Source: a virus
Length of the DNA stretch: 64,000 nucleotides
Virus record (IMG/VR): IMGVR_UViG_3300010389_003143
Span: 1 to 64,000 of that record
Direction: 5' to 3' (one strand)
The position numbers were made by a program, and so were the translations under genes. Below, one piece after another: positions 3,478-41,104 of this stretch (positions are counted from its first letter, which is position 1; each line of letters starts with the position of its first letter). The notes below the pieces were generated by a model. The model was not told the origin of the DNA. It saw nothing but the letters and a program-made list of their open reading frames with translations, and did no database searches.

Positions 3478-3939
3478 ATGATTGAAGATAAAATTATAGC
3501 TTTATGCAAATGGTTAAACAAAAATGGACATAAAAAGCAATCTTATGAGCTTTTTGACATAGTCAAGAATTCTGGGATAGAAGTTAGTGAGCACCCACTT
3601 GCAGCAGCTGTAGCTCTAGAGATTCTTCCTCCCCATGTATTGGAAGCACTTTGTGACAAAGAAGAGGGAAGAAAAGAAGAAGAAGAAGAAGAAGAAGAAG
3701 AAGAAGAAGAAGAAGAAGATCCTATAGACGAACTGTTAAAAGAGATTAGAAAAAAAGCTGCAAAAAAGAAGAAAAAGAAAAAAGACAGGACCCCAACTAA
3801 GCCTGAGCTGTGGAGCGCCTCTAAAGCTTGGGCTAAAAGAAAGTATGATGTATGGCCAAGTGCTTATGCTGTTGGCGCTGCCCTAAAAAGATACAAGGAA
3901 AAAGGTGGCGGTTGGCGTGGTCCAAAGCCAAAGAAGTAG
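3478..3939 (+). CDS. Small phage protein: KEA hairpin, poly-Glu linker, basic C-terminal domain
   Basis: A 153-residue three-part protein. Residues 5-33 form a KEA-type hairpin (KIIALCKWLNKNG then KKQSYELFDIVKNSG). A run of about 15 glutamates near residues 62-81 is encoded by a GAA microsatellite and followed by a lysine-rich stretch. The C-terminal 50 residues (from about 103) carry 'KAWAKRKYDVWPSAYAVGAA', then 'GGGWRG'. I recall this kind of domain from small proteins of cyanophages and giant viruses. The strongly alternating acid and base runs suggest a nucleic-acid- or scaffold-associated structural role. It is first in a plus-strand run of five hairpin-bearing genes. Function unknown. 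Confidence 0.75.
   Translation: MIEDKIIALCKWLNKNGHKKQSYELFDIVKNSGIEVSEHPLAAAVALEILPPHVLEALCDKEEGRKEEEEEEEEEEEEEEDPIDELLKEIRKKAAKKKKKKKDRTPTKPELWSASKAWAKRKYDVWPSAYAVGAALKRYKEKGGGWRGPKPKK
3676..3717 (+). repeat. (GAA)14 trinucleotide repeat
   Basis: Fourteen uninterrupted GAA units encoding poly-Glu inside the first KEA-hairpin gene. Slippage in steps of three would change linker length without breaking the frame. Confidence 0.9.
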
Positions 3940-3947
3940 GGCAAAAA

Positions 3948-4217
3948 ATGATTCAACTCAATAGACTTCCTGATCTTTATACTTATCTTTTAAGTCTAGG
4001 CTTTAAGAAAGAGGCCGATGCTGTTTTAGCATTAACAAAAACTGCTGTTTTAAAAAGACTAAAAAGAACTACAAGAGGTAAAGGCAAAAGAGATCGCATG
4101 GAATGGGCTCTCGTATCAAAGTCTAATCCTAAAAAGATTTTAAAATGGTTTGGGCCAGAAAAGCCTACTAAAAAAGAGGTAGCTAAAGAAGAGCTCAGAG
4201 TTCGTACTTTTGGATGA
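3948..4217 (+). CDS. Small basic KEA-hairpin protein
   Basis: 89 residues from the ATG at 3948, eight bases after the previous stop; a longer in-frame extension upstream would overlap the preceding gene and is not favoured. The hairpin is at residues 6-32 (LPDLYTYLLSLGFKKEADAV, then a second helix ending in TKTA). The remainder is lysine-rich, 'KRDRMEWALVSKSNPKKILK' followed by WFGPEKPTKKEVAKEE and 'RVRTF'. I recall this tail type from small proteins of large phages; its role is unknown. It is part of the plus-strand hairpin cluster. The sharp boundary between hairpin and basic domain suggests a modular tag attached to an independent domain. Confidence 0.7.
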   Translation: MIQLNRLPDLYTYLLSLGFKKEADAVLALTKTAVLKRLKRTTRGKGKRDRMEWALVSKSNPKKILKWFGPEKPTKKEVAKEELRVRTFG

Positions 4218-4253
4218 TAGTTACTAATATAAAAATTAAAAAAGGAGTTTAAA

Positions 4254-4706
4254 ATGATTAAAGATTTAATTGCTGTCGCAAATTCATTAGATGAAAAAGG
4301 CTTAAGGAAAGAGGCTAATGCCTTAGACGAAATACTAAGAAAATTAGCTTCTGATACAAAATACGACAAAGAAGGGTTGGAGCTTCCTTTTGATGAAGCT
4401 CTGAGGGAAATAGAGCGGGAGGGCTTGCCTGAGGCCGATGAAGAACTGGAAGCAATGATACGCAAAATAGTTAAGGAAGAAGTAGAGGGGCGACTGATGG
4501 CTATAAACCAAGCTTACTTCCAAGAACCCGGGGGAATTGGAGGCTTTCAAGTAGGACCCGAGGGCGGGCGGTCAAGCCTAATTGCAGAAGCGAAAAAGAA
4601 GCCTACAGATAAGCAGCTGAAAGCACTAGATCTTGATGGGGATAGCGAGATAACTGGAAAAGATTTTAAACTTCTAAGAAAAAGAAATAAAAAGAGCAAA
4701 AAATAA
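4254..4706 (+). CDS. KEA-hairpin protein with Asp-rich EF-hand-like C-terminus
   Basis: 150 residues with a strong AAAGGAG site 7 bp before the ATG. It has the clearest hairpin copy in the window, at residues 4-32: 'DLIAVANSLDEKGLRKEANA', then LDEILRKLA. The middle is acidic (EALREIEREGLPEADEELEA). The C-terminal segment near residues 123-150 includes 'DLDGDSEITGKDF', a D-x-D-x-D/S-x-I calcium-loop-like (dockerin/EF-hand) motif, followed by a basic tail. No enzymatic motif is visible. It is probably a small virion or assembly protein, inferred only from context. Confidence 0.75.
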   Translation: MIKDLIAVANSLDEKGLRKEANALDEILRKLASDTKYDKEGLELPFDEALREIEREGLPEADEELEAMIRKIVKEEVEGRLMAINQAYFQEPGGIGGFQVGPEGGRSSLIAEAKKKPTDKQLKALDLDGDSEITGKDFKLLRKRNKKSKK

Positions 4707-4708
4707 AA

Positions 4709-5533
4709 ATGAAAAAAAAATCTGATTTAGATCGCTGGTTTAAAGAAAAATGGGTAGATATTTCCAAGAAAGATAAGTCTGGAAAGCATCCACCTTGCGG
4801 AAGAGCTGATGCCGACAAGGGAAAATACCCGAAGTGCAGGCCCTCAAAAAGAGTTACAAAAGAAACTCCCGTAACCTCAAAAGAACTTTCTAAATCAGAA
4901 AAGAAAAAAGCCGTGAAGAAAAAGCGCAAAACAGAAAAGAAAAGATCAAAGCCTGCAGGTGGCGGGTCAAGAAAACCTAAGAGAGCACCCAGCATTAAAA
5001 AGAAAAGCCTTTATAAGCTGCTTGATCTTGCTGCTTTCATCAAAAGCGCTGGACTGTCTGAATCGAAAAGTGTATTTGATTTAATCAAGAAGATTGCGAA
5101 GGAAATCTGTCCTCCGGCCACTCAGGATATAGATTTAAATACAAAAAATAGAAATCTTACCAGAGATAAGCATAATTATGGCCCGCTAAATCCAGCAGAG
5201 CCGAGCGATGACTACTGGAAGGATCTTGCTAAAAAATGGAATGGAACTAAAAAAGAGGCAATGACATCTCGATGCTCAAATTGCGTCGCCTTTGATGTAA
5301 GCCCAAGAATGAAAGAATGTATGCCACTGGTCGATGAGGGTCTTGAGGAAAAGTTTGGAAATGATCTACCAGGATTTGATTTAGATAAGGCTAAACTTGA
5401 ATTCGGATATTGCTGGATGCATCACTTCAAATGCCTGTCAGCAAGAACTTGCGACACTTGGGCTGGCGGCGGACCAATAGATGATGACGAAAAATCATTT
5501 GAATGGCAATCAAAAAATAAATTTGAGGAATGA
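4709..5533 (+). CDS. Basic N-domain, internal KEA hairpin, Cys-rich C-domain
   Basis: 274 residues, two bases after the previous stop. Residues 1-75 match a lysine-rich phage/virus module I recognise by 'WFKEKWVDISKKDKSGKHPP', CGR and 'YPKCRPSKRV'. After a Lys/Arg linker, residues 100-131 form an internal KEA hairpin ('LYKLLDLAAFIKSAGLSESK' then SVFDLIKKIA). The C-terminal domain has ordered cysteines: 'SRCSNCVAFDVSPRMKEC', then 'YCWMHHFKCLSARTCDTW'. That pattern, seen in cyanophage proteins as I recall, is likely metal- or Fe-S-binding. The hairpin lies between two domains, so it is not strictly an N-terminal signal. Confidence 0.75.
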   Translation: MKKKSDLDRWFKEKWVDISKKDKSGKHPPCGRADADKGKYPKCRPSKRVTKETPVTSKELSKSEKKKAVKKKRKTEKKRSKPAGGGSRKPKRAPSIKKKSLYKLLDLAAFIKSAGLSESKSVFDLIKKIAKEICPPATQDIDLNTKNRNLTRDKHNYGPLNPAEPSDDYWKDLAKKWNGTKKEAMTSRCSNCVAFDVSPRMKECMPLVDEGLEEKFGNDLPGFDLDKAKLEFGYCWMHHFKCLSARTCDTWAGGGPIDDDEKSFEWQSKNKFEE

Positions 5534-5536
5534 TCT

Positions 5537-6214
5537 GTGGCTGGAATTCATGGCAAATATCTTAAAGTTTTGGCCAAACACCTTGACTCAGCAAACTTAA
5601 CAAAAGAGTCAAGGGAGGTCTCCAATTTAATGTCAGATTACATTGGGCACGCAAAAAGCTCAAAAGAGAAAAAAGAAATATCTTCTCCAGAAGATGTCTA
5701 TAACCTCCTAAAAGAAACTCCAAAACCGAACATTTACTTGGACAACCCTATGGGTTCAAAAAAAGGCTTTGGAAATAAAAAGCGTAAACTTCCATTTGAT
5801 TATGGCGAGTTTTCTAATTGGATTAACCCCGCCGATGGAATGGGTTGGGATATAATTATTCCTCCGTCTAACCGTAATCAAACAAACTTGATCCAGGTTG
5901 GTATAGTAAAAGTAAATCCAAATAAAAAAACCTGGAAAGAAAAAGCCAATAAAAAGCCGCCGGTTGGCAACGACAAAATAATCGTTGCCTCTAATGGCGA
6001 GATTACAGAAGAAGACAAAAAGATAATAGAAAGCTTCTTTTCTGATATGTGGCAGTTCAAAGAAGTAATCTGGTTTGAATCAGATAAGGATAGTATTGAT
6101 TTTGCCAAAGATAAAGGAATTACTTTCTTTCGAACAAATTTAGACTATGGAGAAAGAGAGCGTCTTAAACAAAAAAGTAAGAAGAATAAAAATAATATAA
6201 AACTTAATGATTAA
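5537..6214 (+). CDS. KEA-hairpin protein with conserved-looking globular domain
   Basis: 225 residues from a GTG start three bases after the previous stop. The hairpin occupies residues 8-36 (YLKVLAKHLDSANLTKESRE, then VSNLMSDYI). From about residue 70 a globular domain follows: 'NPADGMGWDIIIPPS', then VGIVKVN, 'NKKPPVGNDKIIVAS', and 'SFFSDMWQFKEVIWFES'. The spacing of strands and the Gly-Asn-Asp-Lys motif look like a real enzyme or binding domain, but I cannot name the family. It is last of the five-gene plus-strand hairpin cluster. Confidence 0.7.
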   Translation: MAGIHGKYLKVLAKHLDSANLTKESREVSNLMSDYIGHAKSSKEKKEISSPEDVYNLLKETPKPNIYLDNPMGSKKGFGNKKRKLPFDYGEFSNWINPADGMGWDIIIPPSNRNQTNLIQVGIVKVNPNKKTWKEKANKKPPVGNDKIIVASNGEITEEDKKIIESFFSDMWQFKEVIWFESDKDSIDFAKDKGITFFRTNLDYGERERLKQKSKKNKNNIKLND

Positions 6215-6305
6215 TTGAACAAGGTTATAAGCATCCAGGTCTATTGGAAAACTATTAATTAACAAATATTATTATGCATTCACCCGATAAGTTTGGAGTG
6301 TAAAT

Positions 6306-6587
6306 ATGACCTGGACATTATACGATACGCCCTGTTTTGCAAGCGCAGAAGGAACTCTTGCTCCCGGCCACGATAATGGATTGGAGGTGATTAAGGATAT
6401 TACCTGCTTTGTGCCTATGGTTCGAGCGAATCTTGATAAAGAACGTGGTCGATTTATCGTGCTGCTTCCTGATTCGGTAACTTCGGTACCTGAATCATGG
6501 ATTGCTAAAACGCGAGAAGAAATACAGGAACAGTACGGTGTGGGAAGCGAGTTCGATATGCACCCTATGCCGGGATGGGAGGTATAG
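6306..6587 (+). CDS. Small unknown protein upstream of fibre gene
   Basis: 93 residues with a clear GGAG ribosome site eight bases upstream. No family is recognised. The sequence is mixed alpha/beta with three prolines near the end (HPMPGWEV). Its stop is immediately followed by the ATG of the next fibre-like gene (TAGATG), so the two are translationally linked. It may be a fibre chaperone or connector, by position only. Confidence 0.6.
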   Translation: MTWTLYDTPCFASAEGTLAPGHDNGLEVIKDITCFVPMVRANLDKERGRFIVLLPDSVTSVPESWIAKTREEIQEQYGVGSEFDMHPMPGWEV

Positions 6588-7697
6588 ATGGCAATGGTTT
6601 GGAGTTGGGCCTTCGGAAACGAGGCGCAGACCCAGCTGGAAACAGCGGGATTTGTATTTACTACTGGATCAAATGGAGCGAGCGCATCCCTTGCAGCATC
6701 GTCGTCTGACGTTTATACTTACTCGGGTAGCCCAACCAGATACTCGCTTACAGCGGATGTAGATAACACGGGAAATGCTCCGTTCTACCAAATAGCCATG
6801 CCTGGAACGGCGATATCCAAGGTTGGTGATTCAGGCATCTTTACAATGGCATATCGAACGGCGAACAACACTGACTGGGACCAGACGTTCATCAAGCGTT
6901 TGATGTCTATCGAGACTGCGAACAACTCGAATGCAGCCTTCATCGAGACGGATCCAACGGGTACGGTAAGCCTCTATATCGACAACACTTTTAAGGGTAC
7001 TTCTGGAGGCAGAGATACATCTAACTGGGGGTTTTACGCCCTTGTATTTGATGTAAGCACAACTACATTCACTGCATCCATTTATGTTGACGGCGTTTTG
7101 CAGGTATCCGGATCCGATAGCGCTTCAGCCTCATCGCCGGGTAACATTACTTTGGCAGCATCACAAAGTACGCAGACTGGAGTCGGCGTTTTCGGCTCAG
7201 TATGGGGGCAGTTCATCTTATACGATGACCCTGTTGCGGACCTTGCAGATGCGGTCAGTCCCGACAACTTTGTTACGCGAATTGTTCCTAATGCCAACGG
7301 CGGAGGAACAGTTGGCACATGGTCTCCAACTGGAGCCGCGAGTAATTGGCAGGCAGTAAACCCGCCTATAGATACAACAACTTATGCGGGTATTGCCTCT
7401 CCATCTGCTTTGGATCGACTTGAGGTAGATACGGCGAACGGAACAAATCTTCAAACTCTTCTAGGAATCAATCCAAATTCAATAAAGGGAGCGACAGTTC
7501 ATAGTATCAGCAACGCTACATCAGGAACTGCAAAAGTCGGCATTCAAGAGGGTGGATCAGAAACCTTATCTACAGCTCAGCCAGTATCGACCAGCGATAC
7601 ATATTTGGCTGAGTCTGTAGCAAATAACCCGTCAACTGGTACGGCATGGGTCGGAGCTGATCAGCCCATTCTAGTCTACGAAATCGATTCGGTGTAA
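6588..7697 (+). CDS. LamG/ConA-like fibre protein
   Basis: 369 residues, low in Cys and Lys and rich in Ser, Thr, Ala and Gly, typical of exposed phage fibres. Residues 1-215 look like a concanavalin-type jelly roll, with 'VSLYIDNTFKGTSGG' and a 'YVDGVLQVSG' strand pair. A linker around 225-270 leads to a C-terminal beta domain (about 270-369) with 'TYAGIASPSALDRLEVDTAN' at its start. There is no signal peptide. Its GGGAGG site overlaps the end of the preceding gene. Probable receptor-binding or decoration protein. Confidence 0.6.
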   Translation: MAMVWSWAFGNEAQTQLETAGFVFTTGSNGASASLAASSSDVYTYSGSPTRYSLTADVDNTGNAPFYQIAMPGTAISKVGDSGIFTMAYRTANNTDWDQTFIKRLMSIETANNSNAAFIETDPTGTVSLYIDNTFKGTSGGRDTSNWGFYALVFDVSTTTFTASIYVDGVLQVSGSDSASASSPGNITLAASQSTQTGVGVFGSVWGQFILYDDPVADLADAVSPDNFVTRIVPNANGGGTVGTWSPTGAASNWQAVNPPIDTTTYAGIASPSALDRLEVDTANGTNLQTLLGINPNSIKGATVHSISNATSGTAKVGIQEGGSETLSTAQPVSTSDTYLAESVANNPSTGTAWVGADQPILVYEIDSV

Positions 7698-7700
7698 CTC

Positions 7701-8867
7701 ATGGCCACTGAAGCGTCAGGGCTATGGTCGACATTTGTGCATTCCGTAGAAGGCCCTTCTGAAGTTAGCGAGCTTTGGTCTACATTTGTCCACAGCGCTG
7801 AGGGGCCGGGGGAGCTTGGCGGTCTTTGGTCAACGTTCGTACACACAGTTCCAACGATTACGGCGATCATCAGTAACACGCCTGCCACGGGAACGGTAGG
7901 GTCACCCTTCACCTTTATCGGCTCAAGCAGCATAGGCTTATCATACTCATGGACAGTCACGAGCAAGCCAGGAGGCTCTTTTGTTGGAGAGCCTATACCA
8001 TTCCCTGACAATGGTGCGACCACGCCTGTCAATATGACCGACAATGAAGGGCTTTGGCACTTTGAGGGGAATGCAAACGATACATCCGGTAATGCCCGAA
8101 ACGGTACAGTGACAGGAGCAGCGCTCGTAACAGGTTACGTCGGGTCGCAGGCTTATCAGTTTGGAACCAGTGACTATATCGACTTTGGTGCGGCCAGCAC
8201 TTTTCTTTCTGCTCCAGACGACTTCTCGATCTCTATCTGGATCAAGGGTGATGCGGCATGGACTCCTGCTCTCTACGATGCGGTCTTAGGTTTTTCCAAC
8301 TTTTTCACTTGGAATCAGGGCGTTGGGCTTTATTTCACTAACGCGAACACGCTACGGGTATTTGTGGGGGCTTATAACGGATTCTTCACCGAAGGTACGT
8401 TGGGCACTGTAAGCGACTGGAACCACGTTGCAATCACCTACATTGGCGGTACGCTTCGACTCTACATCAATGGAGTAGAAGCATCGAACAATACAGGCGG
8501 AAGCACTCTCACTGGGCTGACCGATGTATTGCAAGTGGGCCGACTTGGGACCTACGGGAACCTTGAGGCAACTCTGGATGAATTTGCCATCTGGAGTCGC
8601 GGCCTGTCTCCTACAGAAGTTGCCGACATCTACTCCCTCCAAACAGGGCCGGTGACAGATGCCGCCAACTTCACCTTCACGCCAGACCTAAATGGAACGT
8701 ATGACGTTCAGCTTGAGGTGAGCGGATACGACGGAGGCGGATTCTCAACGGACACGGCGACTGGTACGTTAGTCGTATCTGCAGTAACAGCAGACTCAAG
8801 GCTGCAAGGCTTTACCGTGCAGGGCTTTGAGCTTCAGGGAAGCGGCTTTAGTCTTTCGAAAAAATAA
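7701..8867 (+). CDS. Fibre/adhesin: triple repeat, PKD-like fold with nested LamG
   Basis: 388 residues. The N-terminus has three copies of 'LWSTFVH' at residues 8, 25 and 42 (17-residue period). A PKD-like domain begins about residue 50 (ISNTPATGTVGSPFTFIGSS, then LSYSWTVTSKPGG). It is interrupted at about residue 92 and resumes about residue 318 with 'ANFTFTPDLNGTYDVQLEVS'. The intervening 220 residues are a LamG domain nearly matching the C-terminal domain of the gene at 579-2645, with the same entry sequence PFPDNGATTP. The last 30 residues have a repeat, 'LQGFTVQGFELQGSGF'. A LamG inserted in a PKD loop is unusual. Likely a virion fibre. Confidence 0.65.
   Translation: MATEASGLWSTFVHSVEGPSEVSELWSTFVHSAEGPGELGGLWSTFVHTVPTITAIISNTPATGTVGSPFTFIGSSSIGLSYSWTVTSKPGGSFVGEPIPFPDNGATTPVNMTDNEGLWHFEGNANDTSGNARNGTVTGAALVTGYVGSQAYQFGTSDYIDFGAASTFLSAPDDFSISIWIKGDAAWTPALYDAVLGFSNFFTWNQGVGLYFTNANTLRVFVGAYNGFFTEGTLGTVSDWNHVAITYIGGTLRLYINGVEASNNTGGSTLTGLTDVLQVGRLGTYGNLEATLDEFAIWSRGLSPTEVADIYSLQTGPVTDAANFTFTPDLNGTYDVQLEVSGYDGGGFSTDTATGTLVVSAVTADSRLQGFTVQGFELQGSGFSLSKK
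7722..7844 (+). repeat. 51-bp tandem coding repeat (LWSTFVH units)
   Basis: Three units spaced 51 bp apart encode LWSTFVH followed by S/T and an acidic Gly-Pro linker. Codons differ between units, so the repeat is conserved more strongly at protein than at DNA level. Confidence 0.7.
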
Positions 8868-8884
8868 ATATAAATATATTTAAA

Positions 8885-9403
8885 CTATCTCTTTAGACTT
8901 CTCTTTAGGAGATATGCGTTTGTTTCGTGAGAATTTGCGGTTGCCATCAAAAAGTCATCTAGGCCAAGAGTCATCTCATTAGACTTGGTGATACTCTCAT
9001 AAGCATCTTCCAGGATCTTTTGCATAAACTCCTCGGACTCTAGCCCTCTCTTTATTGGGCATTCGGTCTCTGCCCATTTTTTGCATAGCATGTGAATCTT
9101 TTCGGTTTGCTCAACCATGTCAACTCCAGCATCATCCTCAAAGCAAACGAGCTTTTCTGCCAGAGTATCTATCTCGTCTTGAACTGACTCGTATAGCCTC
9201 TGGAACATCAGGTGCTCAGAATAAAATGCCATACCACTAGATGTCCAATGGGATGTCTGGTAGCTTATATATTGGGCACGTAGCGATGCAAGAACGTTGC
9301 CAAGATGCTCCTTTAGGCCGCCACCTCTTATTGAGCCTTCTTCTTCCTCTTCTTCTTGAGCCATCTTTAGCATTGATGATTTTCTTGATATTAATTTTTT
9401 CAT
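8885..9403 (-). CDS. dps: Dps-family ferritin-like protein
   Basis: 172 residues from the ATG at 9401-9403, with AGGTGG eight bases upstream; the GTG four codons earlier lies in that site. A four-helix Dps pattern is visible from about residue 30. Candidate ferroxidase ligands are H52 (SHWT), H64 (YSEHLMF), D79 and E83 (DEIDTLAEKL). A usual Asp position four residues after the second His is Gln (Q68), so iron oxidation may be altered. Dps proteins form 12-mers that store iron, bind DNA and protect against peroxide. The poly-Glu stretch at residues 17-22 and the extended C-terminus are non-standard. Phage Dps copies may shield DNA or remove iron. Confidence 0.75.
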   Translation of the reverse strand: MKKLISRKSSMLKMAQEEEEEEGSIRGGGLKEHLGNVLASLRAQYISYQTSHWTSSGMAFYSEHLMFQRLYESVQDEIDTLAEKLVCFEDDAGVDMVEQTEKIHMLCKKWAETECPIKRGLESEEFMQKILEDAYESITKSNEMTLGLDDFLMATANSHETNAYLLKRSLKR

Positions 9404-9438
9404 GTTTTGATCCACCTATTAATAAATAAGATATTAGT

Positions 9439-9600: not shown

Positions 9601-9608
9601 TAAATTTT

Positions 9609-9981: not shown

Positions 9982-11343
9982 TTAGTTTAATCTTGTCATA
10001 GCAGATAACAAGTGTTCGTAAATGCCTATTTCTTTTTTTATTGCAGATAGAATAACTTCTTTTTTATCTGAATTATTTTCTTTATTTGCTTTTTCAATCA
10101 TCCCTTTTATTTCTTCTTTTTTGTCATTCAACCTTTTTGCAAGACTGCCTTTATCACTATCCTTTCTTTTTTCATCATAATACTCAATTATATCATCTAA
10201 TAAAAAGCTTTCATTTAAAAGAGGAATGTAGCTTAGAAAAAGCTCTGAAAAATACTCTAAATTATCATCTTTTTTATACTGTTTATATTGTTCTTTTAAA
10301 AATTCATTATCATTTTCATAGTCAGCATATATATTTTTTAATAATTCAGAATAATCTAGATCTAACAAAGTTTTTAATTTCTTTAATTTTTCTGCATCTC
10401 CATATTCAGACATTTCAATATAAAGCTCAACAGGTTTAATATAACGATTAAAAGCAATAATCATTGATGACTTTATATCTGCGGAAAGATCCAAAAGTTC
10501 TTCTTCTGACATAAAGGATAGTAAATCAAATAAACTAATGCTTCCTGCTGGTCCCGGGTCATATCCAGGCTCTTCTATTGCTCTTTCTCTATCTAGTTTT
10601 TCAATTATAGACTCTCTTCTGTTTTCTTCCAAAAGCTCATTAAAAGCTTCTTCCATAAGGTCTCTTTGATCGCTAGAATCTAAAACACTTAAGTTATTTT
10701 TGTCAGATTGTCTTTCATCACCTAAGAAGAGAGTATCACCTCCAGATAATCGTTCGTTACGAAGATATTCTCTAACTTTTCTTTTGTAACGTTCTTCTAG
10801 CCGCTCTTGATCTGGAGCATGACTTAGCCTTTCCTTTATAGCCTCATACATAGCTGGCTCTGTATACATAAGCTCTTGACCTTCTTCGGTCTCTCTAACA
10901 AATCTCTCAAGATCGGAGTTGGATCTTAAATTTCTGTCTCTTATAGTATCGAAAACATATTTTTTAAAGAAAGCTTCATTTATACCTTCTGATTCTACTT
11001 TTTTCAAAACCCATTCAACTTTAGATTTAAGATCCTGTGGATAACTCCATAATTCCTCATCATCAAAACTAACTGCATTTGGACCTTTAGGTTCAGGGGG
11101 TTGATTAAAGTTTATTTGAGGATAAGTTTTCTCAAGATTATCCATTGCGTTTTGAGCTGCATTACGCTCACCATCAGTGGTAGCTCCGTCCCTTAGCGCT
11201 TTCACCTTATTATATTTTTCTATTAATTTTTTTCGAGAAATCTTTTCTGAAGATAATTTTATTAAGCCAAAAACATTTATAGCTTCTTTTTCTAAATTAT
11301 TATTAAATAAATAAGAAAATAAATTAAAGATTTTATTATACAT
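9982..11343 (-). CDS. Large charged KEA-hairpin protein
   Basis: 453 residues, starting 8 bp inside the 3' end of the SOD gene. The N-terminal hairpin at residues 5-31 reads 'IFNLFSYLFNNNLEKEAINV', then FGLIKLS. The remainder is almost entirely charged alpha-helix (Glu, Lys, Asp, Leu), for example the region around 190-260 and the helical tail from 350. No enzyme motif is seen. It could be a scaffold or internal head protein; long acidic/basic helical proteins are common there. Function unknown. Confidence 0.65.
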   Translation of the reverse strand: MYNKIFNLFSYLFNNNLEKEAINVFGLIKLSSEKISRKKLIEKYNKVKALRDGATTDGERNAAQNAMDNLEKTYPQINFNQPPEPKGPNAVSFDDEELWSYPQDLKSKVEWVLKKVESEGINEAFFKKYVFDTIRDRNLRSNSDLERFVRETEEGQELMYTEPAMYEAIKERLSHAPDQERLEERYKRKVREYLRNERLSGGDTLFLGDERQSDKNNLSVLDSSDQRDLMEEAFNELLEENRRESIIEKLDRERAIEEPGYDPGPAGSISLFDLLSFMSEEELLDLSADIKSSMIIAFNRYIKPVELYIEMSEYGDAEKLKKLKTLLDLDYSELLKNIYADYENDNEFLKEQYKQYKKDDNLEYFSELFLSYIPLLNESFLLDDIIEYYDEKRKDSDKGSLAKRLNDKKEEIKGMIEKANKENNSDKKEVILSAIKKEIGIYEHLLSAMTRLN

Positions 11344-11911
11344 CTTTACTTCCTTCAGATGCTTTCTTTAAAAGTTTACTTAATCGATCTAATCGACTAG
11401 ATTTAGTTAGATTTATTCTATCATTTACTACAGACCAATCAATTATTCGCCATATATTTTTTAGGTACTTTGATTTGTCACTCTGATAATCAAGAGCCCA
11501 GGCGTGTTCCCACCAGTCAACGAGAAGAACAATGTCTCTTTTAATCTGATGATTTTTTATTGTTTTGATTTTTCCATCTTTGGCCAAGTAAACCCAACCG
11601 GACCCTTGGATAGACATGGCAACTTTTGTAAATTCTTCTTTAAAAGAATCAAATGAACCAAAGTTATCTTCTATTAGCTCTAGGCTGGATCCGACTGGTT
11701 TGTTTGCACCCTTCGGCGGCTTTAGCTGAGGAAAAAATAAATTATGCAAGAAGGCTCCGGCTTCGTTAAAGCCAGAGTCTCCCTCTTCTGCGTTGAAGCG
11801 CTTTACATAGCCCGCAGCAAGCTTATCCCTGTGATACTTAAGGGTATCTTCTGACATAACTGGCGCTAAATCAGAATAGTTATAATTTATTTTTTCCAGA
11901 GTTAGTTTCAT
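11336..11911 (-). CDS. sodB: Fe/Mn superoxide dismutase with extra C-terminal helix
   Basis: 191 residues. All four metal ligands of the Fe/Mn-SOD family are present: H27 (KYHRDKL), H56 (FLHNLFF), D132 and H136 (DWWEHAW). The family motif GSGWVYL is also present. SOD converts superoxide to peroxide and oxygen. After the normal end there is a tail of about 20 residues, 'SSRLDRLSKLLKKASEGS', that is not part of the usual fold and recurs in a 37-residue gene downstream. The gene starts in an ATGA overlap with the HAD-2H gene. It may protect phage functions in a stressed host. Metal preference cannot be decided from the motif alone. Confidence 0.85.
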   Translation of the reverse strand: MKLTLEKINYNYSDLAPVMSEDTLKYHRDKLAAGYVKRFNAEEGDSGFNEAGAFLHNLFFPQLKPPKGANKPVGSSLELIEDNFGSFDSFKEEFTKVAMSIQGSGWVYLAKDGKIKTIKNHQIKRDIVLLVDWWEHAWALDYQSDKSKYLKNIWRIIDWSVVNDRINLTKSSRLDRLSKLLKKASEGSKDV

Positions 11912-12975
11912 GCTCTCTTCAGCATCCTAGGGTAGGCGTCAACTATGCCGCTTATTTCAAATTCATCGACAGGGTTATATTCTCTAGATATTAAATCATT
12001 ACTATATTTTGCACCAACCGATTTATCATGAGTTATTGTTACATGTGGTTTGCTTTCACCCAAATAGGGTATCTCTGGCGGCAAGGAAACAATTGCAGCT
12101 TGGCCCTTGTCGTCTTCGGCATAACCCACTACAGTTGCAGAAACCTTTTGTCCAATTAAATTAATCCACTCAGGAGATTCCATCATTTCGATGGTTGGCG
12201 CAAATGCCAGCGTAACATGATCATTTTTTATTTCATCATGTTTAAGTGAGAAGTTTTCAATTATCTTTGATTTACTAGATGAGTCCAAAAATATTCCAAT
12301 ATAAGTAGGCTTCTTTTTTGCCTCAACTTTAGAGAACGAATATTCATCACATAAGGGCTTCATAGCACTGGTGTTTACGGTTGTTATCTCAACCTTTTTG
12401 CCCATTTTTTCAAAAATTCTCTTAAAGTGCTGAAGGTGGCTCGGTCTATCATCCCAGATCTTAACCTTTTTGATGGTGGGATATTTGTTTAAATAACCTA
12501 TAGCAGTTTTAAGCTTTCCTGCCATAGTGTTCTTGACGGTGCTAAGGTGAACTTCATCAAAATTAAGGCCGGCTTGCTGCAAAAGATCTGGCACACGATA
12601 ACGAAACGCAGTAGGCTTTTCCTTACCCTTTTTTCCGACTACCTCTTTTCGGCCTGTCATCATAATTGCCCAAACATTTGGGTTAGAAATAGATTTCTTT
12701 GCGGAATCTACAGTTGATGATATCCACCACTCCTGCCCCGGATCAGATGGGACACAGGGTGGCGTTAGGCTTGCCGGATCACTCCACCAATCCCCGTCCC
12801 ATACAGCAGGGCTCTGAGGGCTTCTAAAAAGAGTGCCATCGAAATCATATATATGCAACTCGTCATCCGCAGGCTCAGCCTGAGCGGACTTTAGAATAAA
12901 GCCTATAGCCTTAGACTCTTTTTTAAATCCCATTTTTTCAAGAGATTTCTTTAAAATTTTTAAGGCTATCTTCAT
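11908..12975 (-). CDS. HAD phosphatase - 2H phosphoesterase fusion (RNA-repair-like) with KEA hairpin
   Basis: 355 residues from the ATG at 12973-12975 (GGAGG five bases upstream). Residues 1-31 are a KEA hairpin (ALKILKKSLEKMGFKKES, then IGFILKSA). Next comes a HAD domain with nucleophile motif DFDGT (44-48) and DDRPSH (175-180), of the type found in Swiss-army-knife RNA-repair proteins and T4 Pnkp-like phosphatases. The C-terminal part has paired H-x-T motifs, HVTL (253) and HVTI (311), diagnostic of 2H phosphodiesterases (LigT/CPDase). Together these would process 3'-phosphate or 2',3'-cyclic phosphate RNA ends, for example after tRNA cleavage by host defences. No ligase or kinase is fused. 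Confidence 0.75.
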   Translation of the reverse strand: MKIALKILKKSLEKMGFKKESKAIGFILKSAQAEPADDELHIYDFDGTLFRSPQSPAVWDGDWWSDPASLTPPCVPSDPGQEWWISSTVDSAKKSISNPNVWAIMMTGRKEVVGKKGKEKPTAFRYRVPDLLQQAGLNFDEVHLSTVKNTMAGKLKTAIGYLNKYPTIKKVKIWDDRPSHLQHFKRIFEKMGKKVEITTVNTSAMKPLCDEYSFSKVEAKKKPTYIGIFLDSSSKSKIIENFSLKHDEIKNDHVTLAFAPTIEMMESPEWINLIGQKVSATVVGYAEDDKGQAAIVSLPPEIPYLGESKPHVTITHDKSVGAKYSNDLISREYNPVDEFEISGIVDAYPRMLKRA

Positions 12976-14286: not shown

Positions 14287-15387
14287 TCATTCTTTTTCGT
14301 TTAATCTGAGATTTAAGCTTTGATATTCTTCAAACTCAGCTATTGCATCTTCTATCGAAGCAGCTTTATTTCCAGGCGGCCTAAACCCAAGCTTCCAAAA
14401 TAGAGCTAGTGAGCCTAGATTGCTTACTTGTGCCGAAATTTCATCTGACCCATAATGTGAAATAACAGCTTCTATTAGCCTAGAGCCTATTCCCTCTCTT
14501 CTTCTGTTTTCACTTACAAAAAAGTTAGAGACAGAATGAGCCCCTTGCGCCCACTCGCTATTTTCGGATATATCTACATAAGCTGATCCATCAGAATTGT
14601 CTAGAGAAAACCTTATGTGGTCGTCATGCTCACTTCTTTTGACATCATCTTCAGAGAGCTTTATTATATTATTTAAGTAAATAGATTCTTTTTCAAAACC
14701 TTTTTCCAGAAAAGCAGCTAATGCCTCTAGCTTTTTTAAAATTTCATCTTCTGAACTTTCGCTTATATCACCAAGTATGTCTTCAGAAGATCTAGGGAAC
14801 AATTCCTGCTGAGGATTCTGCTTTTCTTTTTTTATATATTGCTCTATTAGCCACTTTTTATATCCATGAGTATTTTTTCGCTTTAAGGGATATGCTCCTT
14901 TTCTCTTTATGTATCTTAAAAGCTTTTTTCCGGTTAGAATGATGTCTGCAGGTGCGCCTTCTGTAGAGAACCAATCTTCTGGCTCTACTGCAATTAGAGG
15001 GTTTTTCGTTTCATACTCTATATCTTCTCGCATATAGTGCCATGCATCTTCGTCAGCTGGTCTTTTTTGAAAATACTCTTCGCCATCTTTTATTATAACA
15101 ATCATCCCGTGGTTTACAATGTCGTCCTCAGTTATATCCCATGTAGACTTTCTTATCTTGTAAGAGATATGCTGCATCATAGCGTAAGTAGCCATATCAA
15201 GCCTGGATTTGTCTGCTGCAAAAACAAGGCCATGGTCATCCATGCTCTCCTCTTCCCAGTCAAGACCTGTTCCGTGGAGAATCTCTTCTACCCATCGTCC
15301 GACTTGCGGCTCTAAACCATATCTTTCTATGGAATCTTTATTGTCAACTATAGTGCCGTGATAAAGTGTGTAAGATAGCTTTATCAT
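14287..15387 (-). CDS. ART-like domain - KEA hairpin - GNAT acetyltransferase fusion
   Basis: 366 residues in three parts. Residues 1-165 begin 'YTLYHGTIVDNKDSIERYGL' and continue with GLVFAADKSRLDMATYA, the His/Tyr-Gly-Thr start and following helix of ADP-ribosyltransferase-like folds. Residues 216-246 are a KEA hairpin ('LEALAAFLEKGFEKESIY', then LNNIIKLS). Residues 255-345 are a GNAT acetyltransferase: 'VSNFFVSENRRREGIGSRLI' is the acetyl-CoA loop (R/Q-x-x-G-x-G/A), followed by 'NLGSLALFWKLGF'. Such a fusion could modify host proteins in two ways. T4 packages ARTs in its head, which is relevant to the hairpin. The ART assignment is moderate, the GNAT call firm. Confidence 0.65.
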   Translation of the reverse strand: MIKLSYTLYHGTIVDNKDSIERYGLEPQVGRWVEEILHGTGLDWEEESMDDHGLVFAADKSRLDMATYAMMQHISYKIRKSTWDITEDDIVNHGMIVIIKDGEEYFQKRPADEDAWHYMREDIEYETKNPLIAVEPEDWFSTEGAPADIILTGKKLLRYIKRKGAYPLKRKNTHGYKKWLIEQYIKKEKQNPQQELFPRSSEDILGDISESSEDEILKKLEALAAFLEKGFEKESIYLNNIIKLSEDDVKRSEHDDHIRFSLDNSDGSAYVDISENSEWAQGAHSVSNFFVSENRRREGIGSRLIEAVISHYGSDEISAQVSNLGSLALFWKLGFRPPGNKAASIEDAIAEFEEYQSLNLRLNEKE

Positions 15388-15390: not shown

Positions 15391-15996
15391 CTACCACCAC
15401 GTATATTTTTTCTTTGCACCGGTAAGATGCGGATATCTGCCGATTCTACAGGACCAATATCTTGGAGTGCAACGATCATTTGCGGTTTTGCACTTATGTC
15501 TTGCCACAAATGACTTTCTTCTATCTGGCTCAGATATTCTTAGAGGCATATCGGGAGAGCCAAAGGAAATCTTTTTAACTTTTCCGCCGCACTTTACATA
15601 AACATAAAACTTTTTAGAGCCACCGCGTTTTGGTTTTCCAAGTGGCGGATCCTTTTTCTTCTTTTTGGCAGCAGTCTTATCTTCAATTGGCTCGTCTAAA
15701 AATGGAACGTCAAGAAGAACTTCTTTCCCGTTATATTCGGCGGTCTTGCCCAGATCAGAAGATAGAATATCAACATCTTCTTCGCAAAACTTCATCATTC
15801 CGGATAGCCAGTGTTCTCTTGCCTCAGTTATAAGCTCGAAATAAGCTGTGGATCCGAAACGGTAGATGCTGTCGGATATTGGGATTTGAGCTTCGACATG
15901 ATGCTTTAACCCGGCATTTTTTATAATTGATGCGGATTTCACCATAGGAGCCTTTGTTATCCTTGTGTAATTCGCTATTTTTTCTAATCTGCTCAT
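15391..15996 (-). CDS. Phage structural-type protein with basic Cys/His C-terminal motif
   Basis: 201 residues, ATGA overlap with the cupin gene. The N-terminal part (residues 1-105) is helical; a Lys-rich linker near 110-130 leads to a C-terminal domain, 'KKFYVYVKCGGKVKKISFGS' and later RRKSFVARHKC and 'TPRYWSCRIG'. I recognise the RRKSF-ARH-C-WSC pattern from many T4-like cyanophage and pelagiphage proteins, where it occurs in structural or core proteins. The start MSRLEKIANYTRITKA is reminiscent of, but not equal to, the KEA hairpin. Likely a virion or scaffold component. Confidence 0.6.
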   Translation of the reverse strand: MSRLEKIANYTRITKAPMVKSASIIKNAGLKHHVEAQIPISDSIYRFGSTAYFELITEAREHWLSGMMKFCEEDVDILSSDLGKTAEYNGKEVLLDVPFLDEPIEDKTAAKKKKKDPPLGKPKRGGSKKFYVYVKCGGKVKKISFGSPDMPLRISEPDRRKSFVARHKCKTANDRCTPRYWSCRIGRYPHLTGAKKKYTWW

Positions 15997-16286: not shown

Positions 16287-16460
16287 TCAAGACTTTTGAG
16301 CTACTTCGGGGTCATCAGAGTCACCTTCACCCTCTAAAAGTTTCATAGCGCCCTCTGAGGCTATCTTCTGCAAAAGGTGATCGATAATATCTGCGTCTTT
16401 CTGCAGACCCAAACGATCAAGCTTATCTGATAGTAAAACCAACTCTTTCTTTAAATTCAT
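16287..16460 (-). CDS. 57-residue protein consisting mostly of a KEA hairpin
   Basis: A very short gene with an ideal GGAG site, eight bases before the ATG and inside the end of the upstream protease gene (GGAGAATAAAATG). Residues 1-35 are one KEA hairpin: 'ELVLLSDKLDRLGLQKDADI', then IDHLLQKIA. The other 22 residues are acidic (EGEGDSDDPEVAQKS). There is no room for a further domain, so the hairpin itself must be the functional unit: perhaps a partner, competitor or structural plug for the same receptor used by the larger hairpin proteins. Confidence 0.7.
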   Translation of the reverse strand: MNLKKELVLLSDKLDRLGLQKDADIIDHLLQKIASEGAMKLLEGEGDSDDPEVAQKS

Positions 16461-34908: not shown

Positions 34909-34911
34909 TTA

Positions 34912-35070: not shown

Positions 35071-35160
35071 AACATCTCCTATTTGCCTGCAAATATTAGC
35101 AGATTAAATTATTCCATAATAATCAAAAATTTGAACTACTTTCCGCCGCAGACGCTTTTA

Positions 35161-35189
35161 TTGAAAAAATAAGTTTAGTAATATATTTT
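35161..35189 (+). promoter_or_regulatory. Candidate sigma70-like promoter for the second serine protease
   Basis: TTGAAA (35161-35166), a 17-bp spacer and TATTTT (35184-35189) lie in the AT-rich divergent region 35071-35232, upstream of the plus-strand protease gene. Only four of six -10 positions match consensus, and the region is AT-rich, so the call is weak. Confidence 0.25.
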
Positions 35190-35232
35190 ATATTATATTA
35201 ATTTAACCCAATAAAATAGGGGCATTGTAAAT

Positions 35233-36006: not shown

Positions 36007-36542
36007 TTTCTTAGCTTATTTCTTAACTTCTTTATTTTCCCGGACTTTTTCCGTGCGTATAAAGAAAAGAATGCAACGTCTATCATTTTTCCGCTAAGAG
36101 CAGCCTTTAGTGTGTCATTTGCAAAGTTTGCGGCCTCTATAGCCTCAACCCCCATCTGATTTCTCTTTCCATCGGCGTTCTTTTGTGTGTATTTCTTGCT
36201 TATCTGCTCTACCTGCTCTGAGGAGACTCCGTACAAGATCATATTTGGCCTCAGCTTCTCAATAACATCGTCTAACTTTTTCTTTTCGTTCAAGGCATCT
36301 TGTATTTGAGAATTTTGATTGTTTGTGCAATCAAGCAGGCAGGTTTGACAGCTTTCCTTTAGCCCCAAGTTCCATAAATCACAAAGAAGAAATTGCCTCA
36401 CCTCTTTCGGCTCGCCCTTAAGCTCTTCTTTGCAGGAATAAAAAATATTATTATCAACGACAGTTGCAAATCCCTTGCAGTAACGGCTTTCTCGCAACTC
36501 TTTCGTCATTTTGCATGTTTTGGTGCAATCTATTTTTTTCAT
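35982..36542 (-). CDS. Cys-rich N-terminal, basic C-terminal unknown protein
   Basis: 186 residues. Nine cysteines in the first 70 residues (CTKTC, RYCKGF, YSCKEE, LLCDLW, ESCQTCLLDC) suggest metal or disulfide structure. A helical middle and a basic tail (RKKSGKIKKLRNKLRNHKES) follow. No family recognised. Its 3' end overlaps the protease gene by 25 bp on the opposite strand. Confidence 0.5.
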   Translation of the reverse strand: MKKIDCTKTCKMTKELRESRYCKGFATVVDNNIFYSCKEELKGEPKEVRQFLLCDLWNLGLKESCQTCLLDCTNNQNSQIQDALNEKKKLDDVIEKLRPNMILYGVSSEQVEQISKKYTQKNADGKRNQMGVEAIEAANFANDTLKAALSGKMIDVAFFSLYARKKSGKIKKLRNKLRNHKESKKR

Positions 36543-36573
36543 GAAAATTACCAGATATTAAATCTATCTTTTT

Positions 36574-36759
36574 TTAATCATCAGAGTTGCCCTTGTCTAT
36601 ATTATGATCAATTATAGCGACCCCTCTTTTCGGCCCCTCATCTTTCTCCGGTCGCTCATCAGCCTGTGAAGGCAAAGGAGGCTCTCTATAAAGAGGAAGG
36701 CGAATTCTTTCGGATTCGCGCCTTATTTTTCTTATTATTGGAATGATATATTTCTTCAT
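36574..36759 (-). CDS. Small protein coupled to phoH
   Basis: 61 residues; the ATG overlaps the phoH stop by one base (TGATG). The N-terminal half is basic and hydrophobic (KKYIIPIIRKIRRESERIRL), then proline-rich (REPPLPSQADERPEKDEGP). No named family. The tight junction makes it a translationally coupled partner gene. Confidence 0.55.
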   Translation of the reverse strand: MKKYIIPIIRKIRRESERIRLPLYREPPLPSQADERPEKDEGPKRGVAIIDHNIDKGNSDD

Positions 36760-38054: not shown

Positions 38055-38066
38055 TTTCTCTCCGAT

Positions 38067-38399
38067 TTATTCGATCTGGTCTTCTTCAATTGTCCAATGC
38101 TCTATTTCGACCTCATAATAGAGCGAGCCGTCCTTATCTTTTTTGAGCGTAAGAATGGGCCCTGCCCATTCTCCAATTAGCTCGCCGTTAAACTTAACCT
38201 CTAGAGCCTCAATGCTCTTATGCTCTATAACTTCAATGTCGTTATCTAACATATAATCCAAGATTTCATCTCTCTCCATTTCATCCATAGCCTCGACATC
38301 CAGGCCAATAAACCAAAACAGATCGCGCAGCCATTCTTGTCGTATTTCTTTTACGTCCCTTGAGTAGCCTACGCGATCTGTTAAAATTTTTGTTATCAT
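38067..38399 (-). CDS. Unknown acidic protein before phoH
   Basis: 110 residues, acidic, AGGT nine bases upstream. Pattern: helical N-half ('QEWLRDLFWFIGLDVEAMDE', then ERDEILDYML), strand-rich C-half ('YEVEIEHWTIEEDQIE'). No family recognised. Same-strand, 12 bp upstream of phoH; probably co-transcribed. Confidence 0.55.
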   Translation of the reverse strand: MITKILTDRVGYSRDVKEIRQEWLRDLFWFIGLDVEAMDEMERDEILDYMLDNDIEVIEHKSIEALEVKFNGELIGEWAGPILTLKKDKDGSLYYEVEIEHWTIEEDQIE

Positions 38400-38461
38400 T
38401 CTATATGATACCTAAATATTAGTCTCTATTTGCTTTTGTTTGCAATTTAAAAGATAAATTA

Positions 38462-41104
38462 TTAATCCTCACTATATTCAACTACCTCGCCTGCTGTCTC
38501 TAGCTCTTCTGTGGGCTCATTTGGCTTTTCGCTCGGTGTTTTGTTAATCTGAATATCTTTCATTGATATTCCGCTCCAGTCACTTCTCTTGGGAGCCCAG
38601 GACTCCCACCACTTTGGAAAATCAAATCTTTCATCATGAATATAGTCACCGTCTCTTTCCGTGGGAATTAAATATTGATTATAAGCAACCGCCTTCTCTT
38701 CTTCTGTAAAATTATTCCAATTTGCCTCAATCCATAGGGCCAACCGCCTAACATCTTCCTTATATCCCTTGAGCTTTTCAATTATTGGTCTGGCCAGATT
38801 GCCGTTATAAAAATCTTTTGTTTTATTATCTATAACTTCATTTAACTTTGCAATTTTAGCTTCTAAGCTGTCCCCTATAATATTTTTAATACGTTCAAAC
38901 TGTCTGTCTACTTCTTTTATAAAGCTTTCTGCTAAATCTAATTTAGCATCAGATTCATTTGAATAAACATAAATAGAAAGCTTTAAATCTACGGTTCCAA
39001 ATAATGAGCTATATGAATTAAGATTTACTTTTGCACTAAGATTTATATTGTTGAACATTTTTCTATAATCAATGAGATCATCTGGCTTATAGAATGGAAA
39101 ATTAAGTTGTTTTTTTGCATCTTCAAATTTTTGCTTTTCAATGCTATTCAGCAAGCTAAATATCTTCTTTTTTTCCTCATCTAAGTTTATTTTAAATAAA
39201 GTATCTTTTATTTCGCCATCAAGAGGGTTTATATAAGCAACATCTGTTAGGTTTATCCCAGCTTTTTCTAATTTGTCAACATTTAATTTTTCTAAATTAT
39301 ACTCTAGTACACCTGGCTTTGGAGAAATTAAGATTTCTCCGTCATAATCATCTTTGTCCCCAAACACATCAAGATTTGAAAGCAAAGCAGAATCCATCCT
39401 TTCTTCAAATAAATCAAAAGCTTTTGGCTTTATATATCCACCATCTACAAGTCCGCGTCTGATTTTTTCAATATACTGATCATATTTTGAATCTATGTCT
39501 CTTTCTGCCCATTCAAAAAAGTTAGATATATCATCCGGATTCATGCAGTCATCGCATCTAAAATCCAGATCAATAATTAGAGAGCCCGAAACAATATCTA
39601 TGTTGTTAATTTCACCATACTCGTCATGCTCAAGAATATTTGTAAAGCCACGATCCTTTTGCTGAGCCCTATATGTTGTTGGAATACTTTTTAGCCCTCC
39701 CGGGTGTACAAATGCCCCCTCCTCCCATTTTGAACCCGAATCTTCCCAGCCATCAAGGTAGACTTCTGCTCTTAAGCTTACGCTTGCAGTAACCATTACT
39801 TCGTCGCCCCAATCAGCATGAACTTCTGCATCGGGGTATATATTTTCAAAGCTTGTTCTGTATTGATCCAGTATATCCTCAACCTCTTCGGCCCAAAGGT
39901 CGGCTACATCCTGTTCCCCCTCCTCAAGGTCTGTTTCAACGTTCCCGTAATACTCTGGTTCAACTCCTCCTTTTGAAAAAAAGCTATTAAGAATCTCTCC
40001 ATCGGATGTGTCCCTATAACTTCCTCCATACATCTTTATTTCATCTTCTGGAGGGGGAATCACCTCCCCCTCATTTTCAAATAGATGCTTTTGAGACTTC
40101 CATGCCCAATCCCTAACAACGTCTATAAAGCCAGGCGGAGTTCTTCCATAAGTTCTATCTTCTGGAACGGCAAACTCGTATCCATCGTATTCATTTACAT
40201 ACTTTCTAAGCCTAACTCTAGAAGCAGGGGCGATTCCTTCTATATTTCTATTTATATCTCTAAATATCTCTTGCCCGTCTAGATCACCTATATTAATTCC
40301 ATCAGCGTCTTCTGCGGTTGATCCGGGCGGCCTAAGGAGGTCGTTTAAATCAGAGTTTTCAACAAGATATGCAATAGGCCCATGCCCTCTTGATTCCTTT
40401 ATTGCACAGTGAAAATAAGAATTACCCTCAGAATGGCAGGACCTTATATTTTCATGATCGCTCATTCTCAGCACATCAATTGGATCTCTTGATATAAGAA
40501 CTGAATATTTTTCTTCAAGATTACCATGGACAAATAATGATTCTATTTGCTTCCAGTTATAATCCTTTGCATATTCGGCTTGCTTTTCCTGCCACCATTT
40601 AGACATCCACTCTGGAGCGCCCTCGTGGGGATTGGCCAAAACCTTTGATATAGAGGTTATTTTATTTCGAGTTATTACTTCACCCGCCCTTGGACCGGAT
40701 GGAATCTCCCTCTCTTCTTTTCTAAAAACCTTTAGATCTGGAACTTGCACTTTTACTGTATAAACTGAGCCCATAGCATTTTGCATCTTTTGATCTACTG
40801 TCTTTAGCTCAAAACGATTGCTTCCACCAGCTGGGGACCACCCTTTATCTCTTAAAAAATCTACAACCTCGCTTAATTTTCCTGCATCTTCTGTTTCATA
40901 GGGAATTATAACTCTAAGTTTACCATCAAATAATTCGTCAAAGCTCAGCTTAGAATAATCTTCATTTAGCCAATCTTTTAGCCTTTTTATTTCAACTTTA
41001 GAGACAGCATATTTATGTAACCTATTTATCTTTGAGGTTGATAAGGCTTCTTTTTTTAAATTATTTTCATAAAGCCATTTTTTTAATAAAGATAGTTTTT
41101 TCAT
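38462..41104 (-). CDS. 880-residue protein with N-terminal KEA hairpin
   Basis: 880 residues from the ATG at 41102-41104 (a GTG four codons upstream is less likely). Residues 1-32 are a KEA hairpin: 'LSLLKKWLYENNLKKEALST', then KINRLHKYA. The rest is acidic and aromatic-rich with no recognised catalytic motif; notable segments are 'HENIRSCHSEGNSYFHCAIK' (about 232-255, a possible Cys/His metal site), 'DLDFRCDDCMNPDDISNFFE' and long helical C-terminal parts. Phage proteins of this size with a helical shell can be polymerases, structural or defence proteins, but I cannot assign it. It is the largest hairpin-bearing protein. Confidence 0.65.
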   Translation of the reverse strand: MKKLSLLKKWLYENNLKKEALSTSKINRLHKYAVSKVEIKRLKDWLNEDYSKLSFDELFDGKLRVIIPYETEDAGKLSEVVDFLRDKGWSPAGGSNRFELKTVDQKMQNAMGSVYTVKVQVPDLKVFRKEEREIPSGPRAGEVITRNKITSISKVLANPHEGAPEWMSKWWQEKQAEYAKDYNWKQIESLFVHGNLEEKYSVLISRDPIDVLRMSDHENIRSCHSEGNSYFHCAIKESRGHGPIAYLVENSDLNDLLRPPGSTAEDADGINIGDLDGQEIFRDINRNIEGIAPASRVRLRKYVNEYDGYEFAVPEDRTYGRTPPGFIDVVRDWAWKSQKHLFENEGEVIPPPEDEIKMYGGSYRDTSDGEILNSFFSKGGVEPEYYGNVETDLEEGEQDVADLWAEEVEDILDQYRTSFENIYPDAEVHADWGDEVMVTASVSLRAEVYLDGWEDSGSKWEEGAFVHPGGLKSIPTTYRAQQKDRGFTNILEHDEYGEINNIDIVSGSLIIDLDFRCDDCMNPDDISNFFEWAERDIDSKYDQYIEKIRRGLVDGGYIKPKAFDLFEERMDSALLSNLDVFGDKDDYDGEILISPKPGVLEYNLEKLNVDKLEKAGINLTDVAYINPLDGEIKDTLFKINLDEEKKKIFSLLNSIEKQKFEDAKKQLNFPFYKPDDLIDYRKMFNNINLSAKVNLNSYSSLFGTVDLKLSIYVYSNESDAKLDLAESFIKEVDRQFERIKNIIGDSLEAKIAKLNEVIDNKTKDFYNGNLARPIIEKLKGYKEDVRRLALWIEANWNNFTEEEKAVAYNQYLIPTERDGDYIHDERFDFPKWWESWAPKRSDWSGISMKDIQINKTPSEKPNEPTEELETAGEVVEYSED

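Follow-up and report, generated by a model that had tools for sequence, protein, structure and literature searches.

The DNA analysed here (the window) comprises bases 1-64,000 of an 80,058-base IMG/VR virus record, which most likely is a fragment; coordinates with the prefix L002 refer to the remainder of this record (L002:8272-10677 = record 72272-74677). An initial annotation had described a helical-hairpin module of about 30 residues that is shared by ten proteins of otherwise unrelated domain content in the window. The presence of this module was confirmed. Its copies are located as follows:

3487..3570, + strand: hairpin module, N-terminus of gene 3478-3939 (poly-Glu, basic); profile match
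3960..4043, + strand: hairpin module, N-terminus of gene 3948-4217; profile match
4260..4343, + strand: hairpin module, N-terminus of gene 4254-4706; profile match
5012..5095, + strand: marginal internal copy, gene 4709-5533 (DUF5872-containing); ten-copy profile only
5555..5635, + strand: hairpin module, N-terminus of gene 5537-6214 (GTG start); profile match
11254..11337, - strand: hairpin module, N-terminus of gene 9982-11343; profile match
12886..12969, - strand: hairpin module, N-terminus of gene 11908-12975 (HAD plus 2H-like); profile match
14656..14736, - strand: internal hairpin module, gene 14287-15387, between ADP-ribosyltransferase (ART)-like part and GNAT; profile match
16365..16448, - strand: hairpin module, bulk of the 57-aa gene 16287-16460; profile match and AlphaFold2 model
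41018..41101, - strand: hairpin module, N-terminus of the 880-aa gene 38462-41104; profile match

The ten proposed copies were aligned, and in a leave-one-out approach the profile of nine copies was used to score the tenth against a null of about 44,000 windows of shuffled open reading frames (ORFs). Eight copies outscored all null windows, and those of genes 4709 and 5537 each tied with 1 of 44,150. An iterated family profile of 197 copies recovered nine of the ten, including that of gene 5537 at 25 bits, and the claim of a shared module stands for these nine; the copy in gene 4709 was not recovered by this profile. A profile search had been suggested together with the initial annotation; with the ten-copy profile it revealed 139 further copies above 15 bits in viral contig stretches selected by a DNA pattern (see below), compared to none in shuffled sequence. 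Three details of the earlier description were corrected: the protein encoded at 16287-16460 (- strand) consists of 57 residues and is nearly the module alone, gene 5537 depends on a GTG start, and in the product of gene 14287 the module sits between two domains.

The differing nature of the host proteins was borne out by Pfam. HAD_SAK_1 is followed by a 2H-type phosphodiesterase-like end in the product of gene 11908, a GNAT domain is preceded by an ART-like N-terminus (recognized by eye) in that of gene 14287, and DUF5872 is found in that of gene 4709. No convincing Pfam match was obtained for the 880-aa protein, which as a single query also retrieved no relatives from viral contigs or cultured phages.

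The consensus of the 197 family members reads KELIKLANxLDxKGLxKEADxLDxIIKK. The AlphaFold2 model of the 57-aa protein, based on 77 sequences, places helices at residues 3-16 and 20-35 with a pLDDT of 94-96 in the core block, so the module is confidently predicted to be a two-helix hairpin. Conservation within the family drops to background past residue 30. Structure searches with the hairpin model gave no significant neighbour, including in the PDB. The initial annotation knew of no named family for the module, and indeed the 57-aa protein has no Pfam or PHROGs match at E<=1 (these two collections were covered; NCBIfam was not searched). The 'KEA' pattern given as characteristic is frequent, but it is merely one variant, since copies of the type ...GHxxLADKIDxxxK occur as well. 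Likewise, the extreme N-terminal position is usual without being general: of 155 distinct copies, 111 are located at the N-terminus, typically with two residues between the initiator region and the module start counted from Met, while 30 are internal and 14 C-terminal.

The DNA pattern GLxKEADx(h)D was run over 2.9 million viral contigs and yielded 100 matching stretches, often with several matches on one huge contig. Copy numbers per contig, a further point to be checked according to the initial annotation, were determined with the family profile and reach 26 on one contig (G003, 223 kb); G023 (67 kb, same phage type as G003) has 22 copies, G011 and G013 have 15 each, G009 and G015 14 each, G002 10 and the record of the window 9, compared to none in ten control phage contigs. 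In a set of 80 loci with related ribonucleotide reductases (RNRs) the ten-copy profile detected one further copy, which is located in an 88%-identical sister contig; the other loci are devoid of the module. Two stricter patterns had no match in 84,980 bacterial and archaeal species genomes, while the same patterns matched 102 and 56 times in the 100 viral stretches, a set that was itself picked by a related pattern. With a tryptophan-type DNA pattern a few more copies were picked up from huge phages already known to carry the module, along with look-alikes. Cultured phages and plasmids yielded nothing useful when searched by tblastn with the 57-aa protein or the consensus (no module match for the consensus), and the module is lacking from the five cultured or named huge phages that are nearest. 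In these searches the module was restricted to a lineage of huge uncultured bacterial viruses.

The module is combined with many partners. More than 20 carriers are encoded by G003, one of which consists of module, PG-binding and lysozyme domains, a second module and a kinase-like domain (the latter recognized by eye). A domain with the signature RTTRGKGKxDR follows the module in the window and precedes it in G003, and the domain after the module in gene 3948-4217 is 77% identical to a G003 domain preceding a module there. In G001:26794-27861 the internal module is followed by a domain that resembles, by eye, the N-terminally tagged protein L273:3781-4575. According to this, an ART-like gene (ART also assigned by eye) was probably fused ahead of a tagged protein with the module retained in between. 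The module of the 880-aa protein is kept in a 46%-identical homologue (G027). Comparison of 129 carriers with Pfam and PHROGs revealed PG_binding_1, LysM, phage lysozyme, endolysin and transglycosylase families, and furthermore GDSL lipase, ArdC-N, DnaJ, tRNA nucleotidyltransferase and RNA-repair proteins. No replication polymerase, helicase or reductase is among the families listed for these carriers (for PHROGs, 25 of 41 were listed), and the RNR, topoisomerase, PhoH-like and helicase-like genes of the window, named by eye from their translations, are without module.

As described in the initial annotation, helix 2 ends in K-h-A/S: [hydrophobic]-x-K-x-[AS] closes this helix in nine of the ten window copies, the ninth being LTKTA in gene 3948. 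The module holds up to three motifs of the type [LIMF]-x-K-x-[AS] (phi-x-K-x-[AS]), at Lys5, at Lys17 (the 'KEA') and at Lys27/28, with 70, 89 and 91 occurrences, respectively, in the 155 copies; all three are present in 28 copies. Three motifs are found in the module of gene 11908-12975. At the module end K.[AS] was found in 75 of the 111 N-terminal copies (18.8 expected) and in 21 of the 30 internal ones (6.1 expected). In 93 non-redundant copies, with Arg counted together with Lys, Lys27 pairs with Ala/Ser29 and Lys28 with Ala/Ser30 (odds ratios of 13.9 and 10.4, P=3e-8 and P=2.5e-6, respectively), while the crossed pairs are unlinked or opposed. The last motif therefore floats by one residue against a fixed helix register, which argues for a linear recognition site; heptad packing does not predict such a float. 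Module proteins are enriched in the motif (ratio 2.2 to 5.7), while it is depleted in unrelated phage contigs (ratio 0.74), and in the module proteins of G009 it lies only within residues 1-60 (21 vs. 2.0).

Common to the related phages are terminase, portal, major capsid protein and a protein of 1070 residues that has a head-protease match. This 1070-aa protein matches PHROG 18299 (phage head protease) at E=6e-11 with invariant His67 and Ser118, and by this profile match and the conserved Ser and His it is assigned as the head-maturation (prohead) protease. Herpesvirus proteases were among the top PDB neighbours of its model (mean pLDDT 73), only at E ~0.7. The motif definition was revised after ortholog alignments, and later tests were for this reason made by independent checks, namely a position control, residue swaps, an unbiased pair scan, a phiKZ control and ortholog retention. 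In 21 head-region genes of G009 [LIMF]xKx[AS] occurs 60 times compared to 21.8 in shuffled sequence; no enrichment was seen in tail genes (36 vs. 28.4) or in head genes when K was replaced by R, E, D, N, Q, T or H ([LIMF]xEx[AS], 19 vs. 22.0). An unbiased scan of residue pairs at offset 2 in the head genes ranked K..A first (z 6.0) and L..K second, with no x-E pair among the top pairs. Among orthologues 63% of the motif lysines are retained, as opposed to 25% of other lysines at equal local identity of 0.2-0.4 (P=2.3e-6). The positions are in agreement with a cleavage site: in the 1070-aa protein the motifs flank but avoid residues 58-260, which cover the protease match at 97-247; in the major capsid protein they are found solely at residues 25 and 56, in an N-terminal stretch that is mostly missing from Bacillus phage G; and in 11 of 12 orthologues of one head-operon protein an unalignable leader ends in [LIF]xKx[AS] right before a conserved DQHG.

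The site of the phiKZ head protease is published as S-x-E (PMC5694885). When 15 phiKZ head proteins (first 150 residues) were subjected to the same scan, S..E was the top pair, and phi-x-K-x-[AS] was not enriched. The pair statistic is thus able to find a real protease motif. In the divergent phage G004 the motif is enriched (59 vs. 32) and K.A is not the top pair, while G030 and G012 have no clear excess of the Lys motif. The top offset-2 pair at 20-40 kb of the more distant phage G012 (177 kb) is R..A (56 vs. 31.4), as if Arg substitutes for the motif Lys.

Bacillus phage G has the closest capsid protein among cultured phages (53% identical), and its gp19 is homologous to the protease domain of the 1070-aa protein (hhalign 99.9%). 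Leaders of the type MKRLIKK[AS] start 23 of 541 phage G ORFs (400 kb), compared to 2.05 after shuffling and to 3 of 1,673 in controls; ORF starts were called by a simple script instead of being adopted from the record. Examples are those at 35181, 70929, 81748, 178674 and 245994 of NC_023719. Of the seven ART-like ORFs, six carry such a leader (ART by motif, with weak PARP support in two). These leaders share with the module the motif, a homologous protease, a related capsid protein and ART-like carriers, and differ from it in having 8-10 residues, a single motif and no hairpin.

Taken together, we consider it probable that the module is a protease-trimmed capsid-targeting leader (propeptide) for proteins packed in the head. 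Late in infection a hairpin-bearing precursor would enter the prohead by binding to the scaffold/protease core or the shell. During head maturation the phage's head protease would cleave the [LIMF]-x-K-x-[AS] sites, the motif being present also in the portal, the major capsid protein, the flanks of the protease itself and several multi-site head proteins. Up to three sites per module, about 11-12 residues apart, would allow its removal as small peptides while the cargo stays inside and is probably delivered with the DNA. C-terminal and internal copies would represent the same docking unit, of which some may stay uncut. Prohead binding, cleavage (after Lys or after Ala/Ser), packaging and injection are all inferred. 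Among the destinations considered for a targeting or docking module, the virion interior is thus supported indirectly, by motif enrichment in head but not tail genes, by endolysin-type, ArdC-N, lipase and RNA-repair carriers with no DNA-replication enzyme among the named matches, and by several ART-like proteins of phage G whose minimal leader has this motif. The assumption that K-h-A/S is a protease site gained statistical support from the register float, the head-gene enrichment, lysine retention and the phiKZ control.

Several observations weigh against a trimmed leader. The other genes of G009 show a mild motif excess (117 vs. 88), as do phage G non-head genes (20 vs. 9.8), and with a stricter first regular expression (two hydrophobic residues before K) no excess was seen in structural genes. 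K.[AS] is missing from the end window of 45 of 141 non-C-terminal copies and from most C-terminal ones (present in 3 of 14, P=0.0009), in the latter case partly because the protein ends at the module. Phage G lacks the hairpin itself. Neither the 80-kb record of the window nor G003 contains the head operon and protease, so for the window itself the link to the head runs through relatives. Some head genes place the motif at residues 1-5 (MKKxS), an odd position for cutting. This last point, together with C-terminal copies that end at the module, would rather fit an uncut docking ligand for the scaffold or the inner capsid wall, formed by hairpin and phi-x-K-x-[AS], with the enrichment in head proteins reflecting binding; Rop, a dimerising hairpin, is among the best PDB neighbours of the hairpin model, though not significantly. 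We regard this explanation as unlikely, as the motif is absent from the protease domain and from mature capsid-protein sequence, the boundary between variable leader and conserved body falls at the motif, and the phiKZ control shows that the statistic detects a true cleavage motif.

The predicted fold would also suit a TPR/PPR-like or Rop-like hairpin through which protein complexes associate inside infected cells, with no relation to the virion, and the module spacing resembles that of a helix-turn-helix repeat consensus. Such a role is very improbable: no TPR or PPR family was matched in Pfam even at E<=1, there is usually one copy per protein, and the motif is tied to head genes. That the module serves import into a phage nucleus or into a compartment based on tubulin could be suspected from the PhuZ-like tubulin domain encoded in the same record (L002:8272-10677). 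The carriers, however, are cell-wall and effector-type enzymes, and 15 module contigs gave no match to the nuclear-shell (chimallin) family, while phiKZ did; nucleus import was rejected for lack of this family, a nucleus shell as docking site is not supported, and we hold a tag of this kind to be very unlikely. Clustering of the module genes (11 of 12 in G009 within <=3 kb of another copy, 2.9 at random) would be expected if mobile 5' gene ends were spread by recombination, the peptide being without function. Copies within a genome are on average only ~60% alike in protein and DNA alike, conservation stops sharply at residue 30, and the module persists in the homologue of the 880-aa protein mentioned above, which together make this view very unlikely.

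As a trimmed leader for head cargo the module can be compared with known systems. The T4 capsid-targeting sequence (CTS), which serves in head targeting of internal proteins (PMC5694885), is present on internal proteins and Alt and is cut by gp21 (S77); like the module it is an N-terminal leader common to unrelated proteins, and ART cargo (T4 Alt) is a further parallel. It differs in its 10-20 residues, its Glu site and its exclusively N-terminal position, while the module, a hairpin of 30 residues, offers up to three sites of Lys type and occurs also internally and C-terminally. The T4 head-protease site is, like the motif described here, of the hydrophobic-x-charged type; in the phages studied here the enriched residue is Lys instead of Glu. 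Giant phages such as phiKZ and SPN3US pack many propeptide-bearing cargo proteins into the head (PMC5694885, PMC10052503), and several protease motifs within one SPN3US propeptide (PMC10052503) are a precedent for a multi-site module. The propeptides of phiKZ (protease gp175, S80) and SPN3US (gp245) resemble the module in both respects, and are unlike it in being often longer than 100 residues, in their S/A-x-E sites and in having no described shared hairpin. ART, GNAT and ArdC-type domains are also known from polyvalent proteins of phages and conjugative elements, which are injected multidomain proteins (PMC7824862); these are single large fusions, whereas module carriers are separate, mostly small tagged proteins. 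By analogy, the module is best read as a new form of capsid-targeting leader, a Lys-motif hairpin.

Further genes of the window that touch on this interpretation are:

2755..3396, - strand: ClpP-like gene; Pfam CLP_protease
8885..9403, - strand: ferritin/Dps-like gene (by eye only), candidate cargo; starts MKKLISRKSSMLKMAQ, like short phage G leaders
11336..11911, - strand: Fe/Mn superoxide dismutase, candidate cargo; Pfam Sod_Fe_N and Sod_Fe_C, with motifs
15391..15996, - strand: gene without hairpin, candidate non-hairpin leader; three phi-x-K-x-[AS] in the first 30 residues (Lys 6, 20, 26)

The ClpP-like protein adjacent to the module genes had been proposed as processor. This is unlikely, as a dedicated head-maturation protease is common to phage G and the related phages and as, judged from the aligned sequence 'KKV(N/D)xYxxAxEA', the window protein has Asn where a second ClpP copy has Asp. 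The two ClpP-like paralogues of the record (window 2755-3396 and L002:4155-4715, both - strand) show this Asn/Asp difference near the expected catalytic Asp. The superoxide dismutase carries phi-x-K-x-[AS] in its C-terminal tail (Lys 170, 182, 183), and oxidative-protection proteins (ferritin/Dps-like, superoxide dismutase) may be virion cargo. Other small proteins of the phages that carry the module (G015:1508, G013:104712, G011:53385 and 156262) have a leader of a second type, MKKIAADRNYRxLKxAA, in which two phi-x-K-x-[AS] motifs are spaced by about 11-12 residues.

Some other features of the record and its relatives were observed. A 141-aa ORF at 62121-62546 (- strand), present too in the sister contig G001, matches the major capsid protein of the huge phages over residues 51-116 (E=1.7e-7) and then ends, as a capsid N-arm fragment or a split gene would. 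The PhuZ-like tubulin domain at L002:8272-10677 (- strand) shares one open frame, encoding 801 aa, with an N-terminal part that is glycosyltransferase-like (PHROG), an unusual fusion. Intein-like proteins (Hint-type inserts by eye) are encoded at 43585-46302, 47317-49803 and 50993-54022 of the window and at L002:1793-3559 and 5671-8208; they include the RNR large subunit, cultured homologues of which are annotated as 'hint domain protein'. The portal genes of G010, G014, G020 and G032 are broken by large in-frame inserts (open frames of 745 to 1,419 aa), which are probably inteins.

Whether phi-x-K-x-[AS], as a minimal leader or as a three-site hairpin, constitutes a packaging code across huge phages including phage G appears evenly balanced to us. 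If this code is true, the injected protein arsenal of uncultured huge phages could be listed from sequence alone, while for giant phages such proteins are normally learned only by virion proteomics of cultured representatives. It would allow candidate injected proteins to be catalogued (ADP-ribosyltransferases, acetyltransferases, and proteins for RNA repair, cell wall and antirestriction), and for the phage G group it would predict a head protease directed at Lys, as opposed to the Glu-directed enzymes of T4 and phiKZ. Phage G, being cultured, makes the packaging claim testable now, and the hairpin, if sufficient, would be a portable tag for cargo loading.

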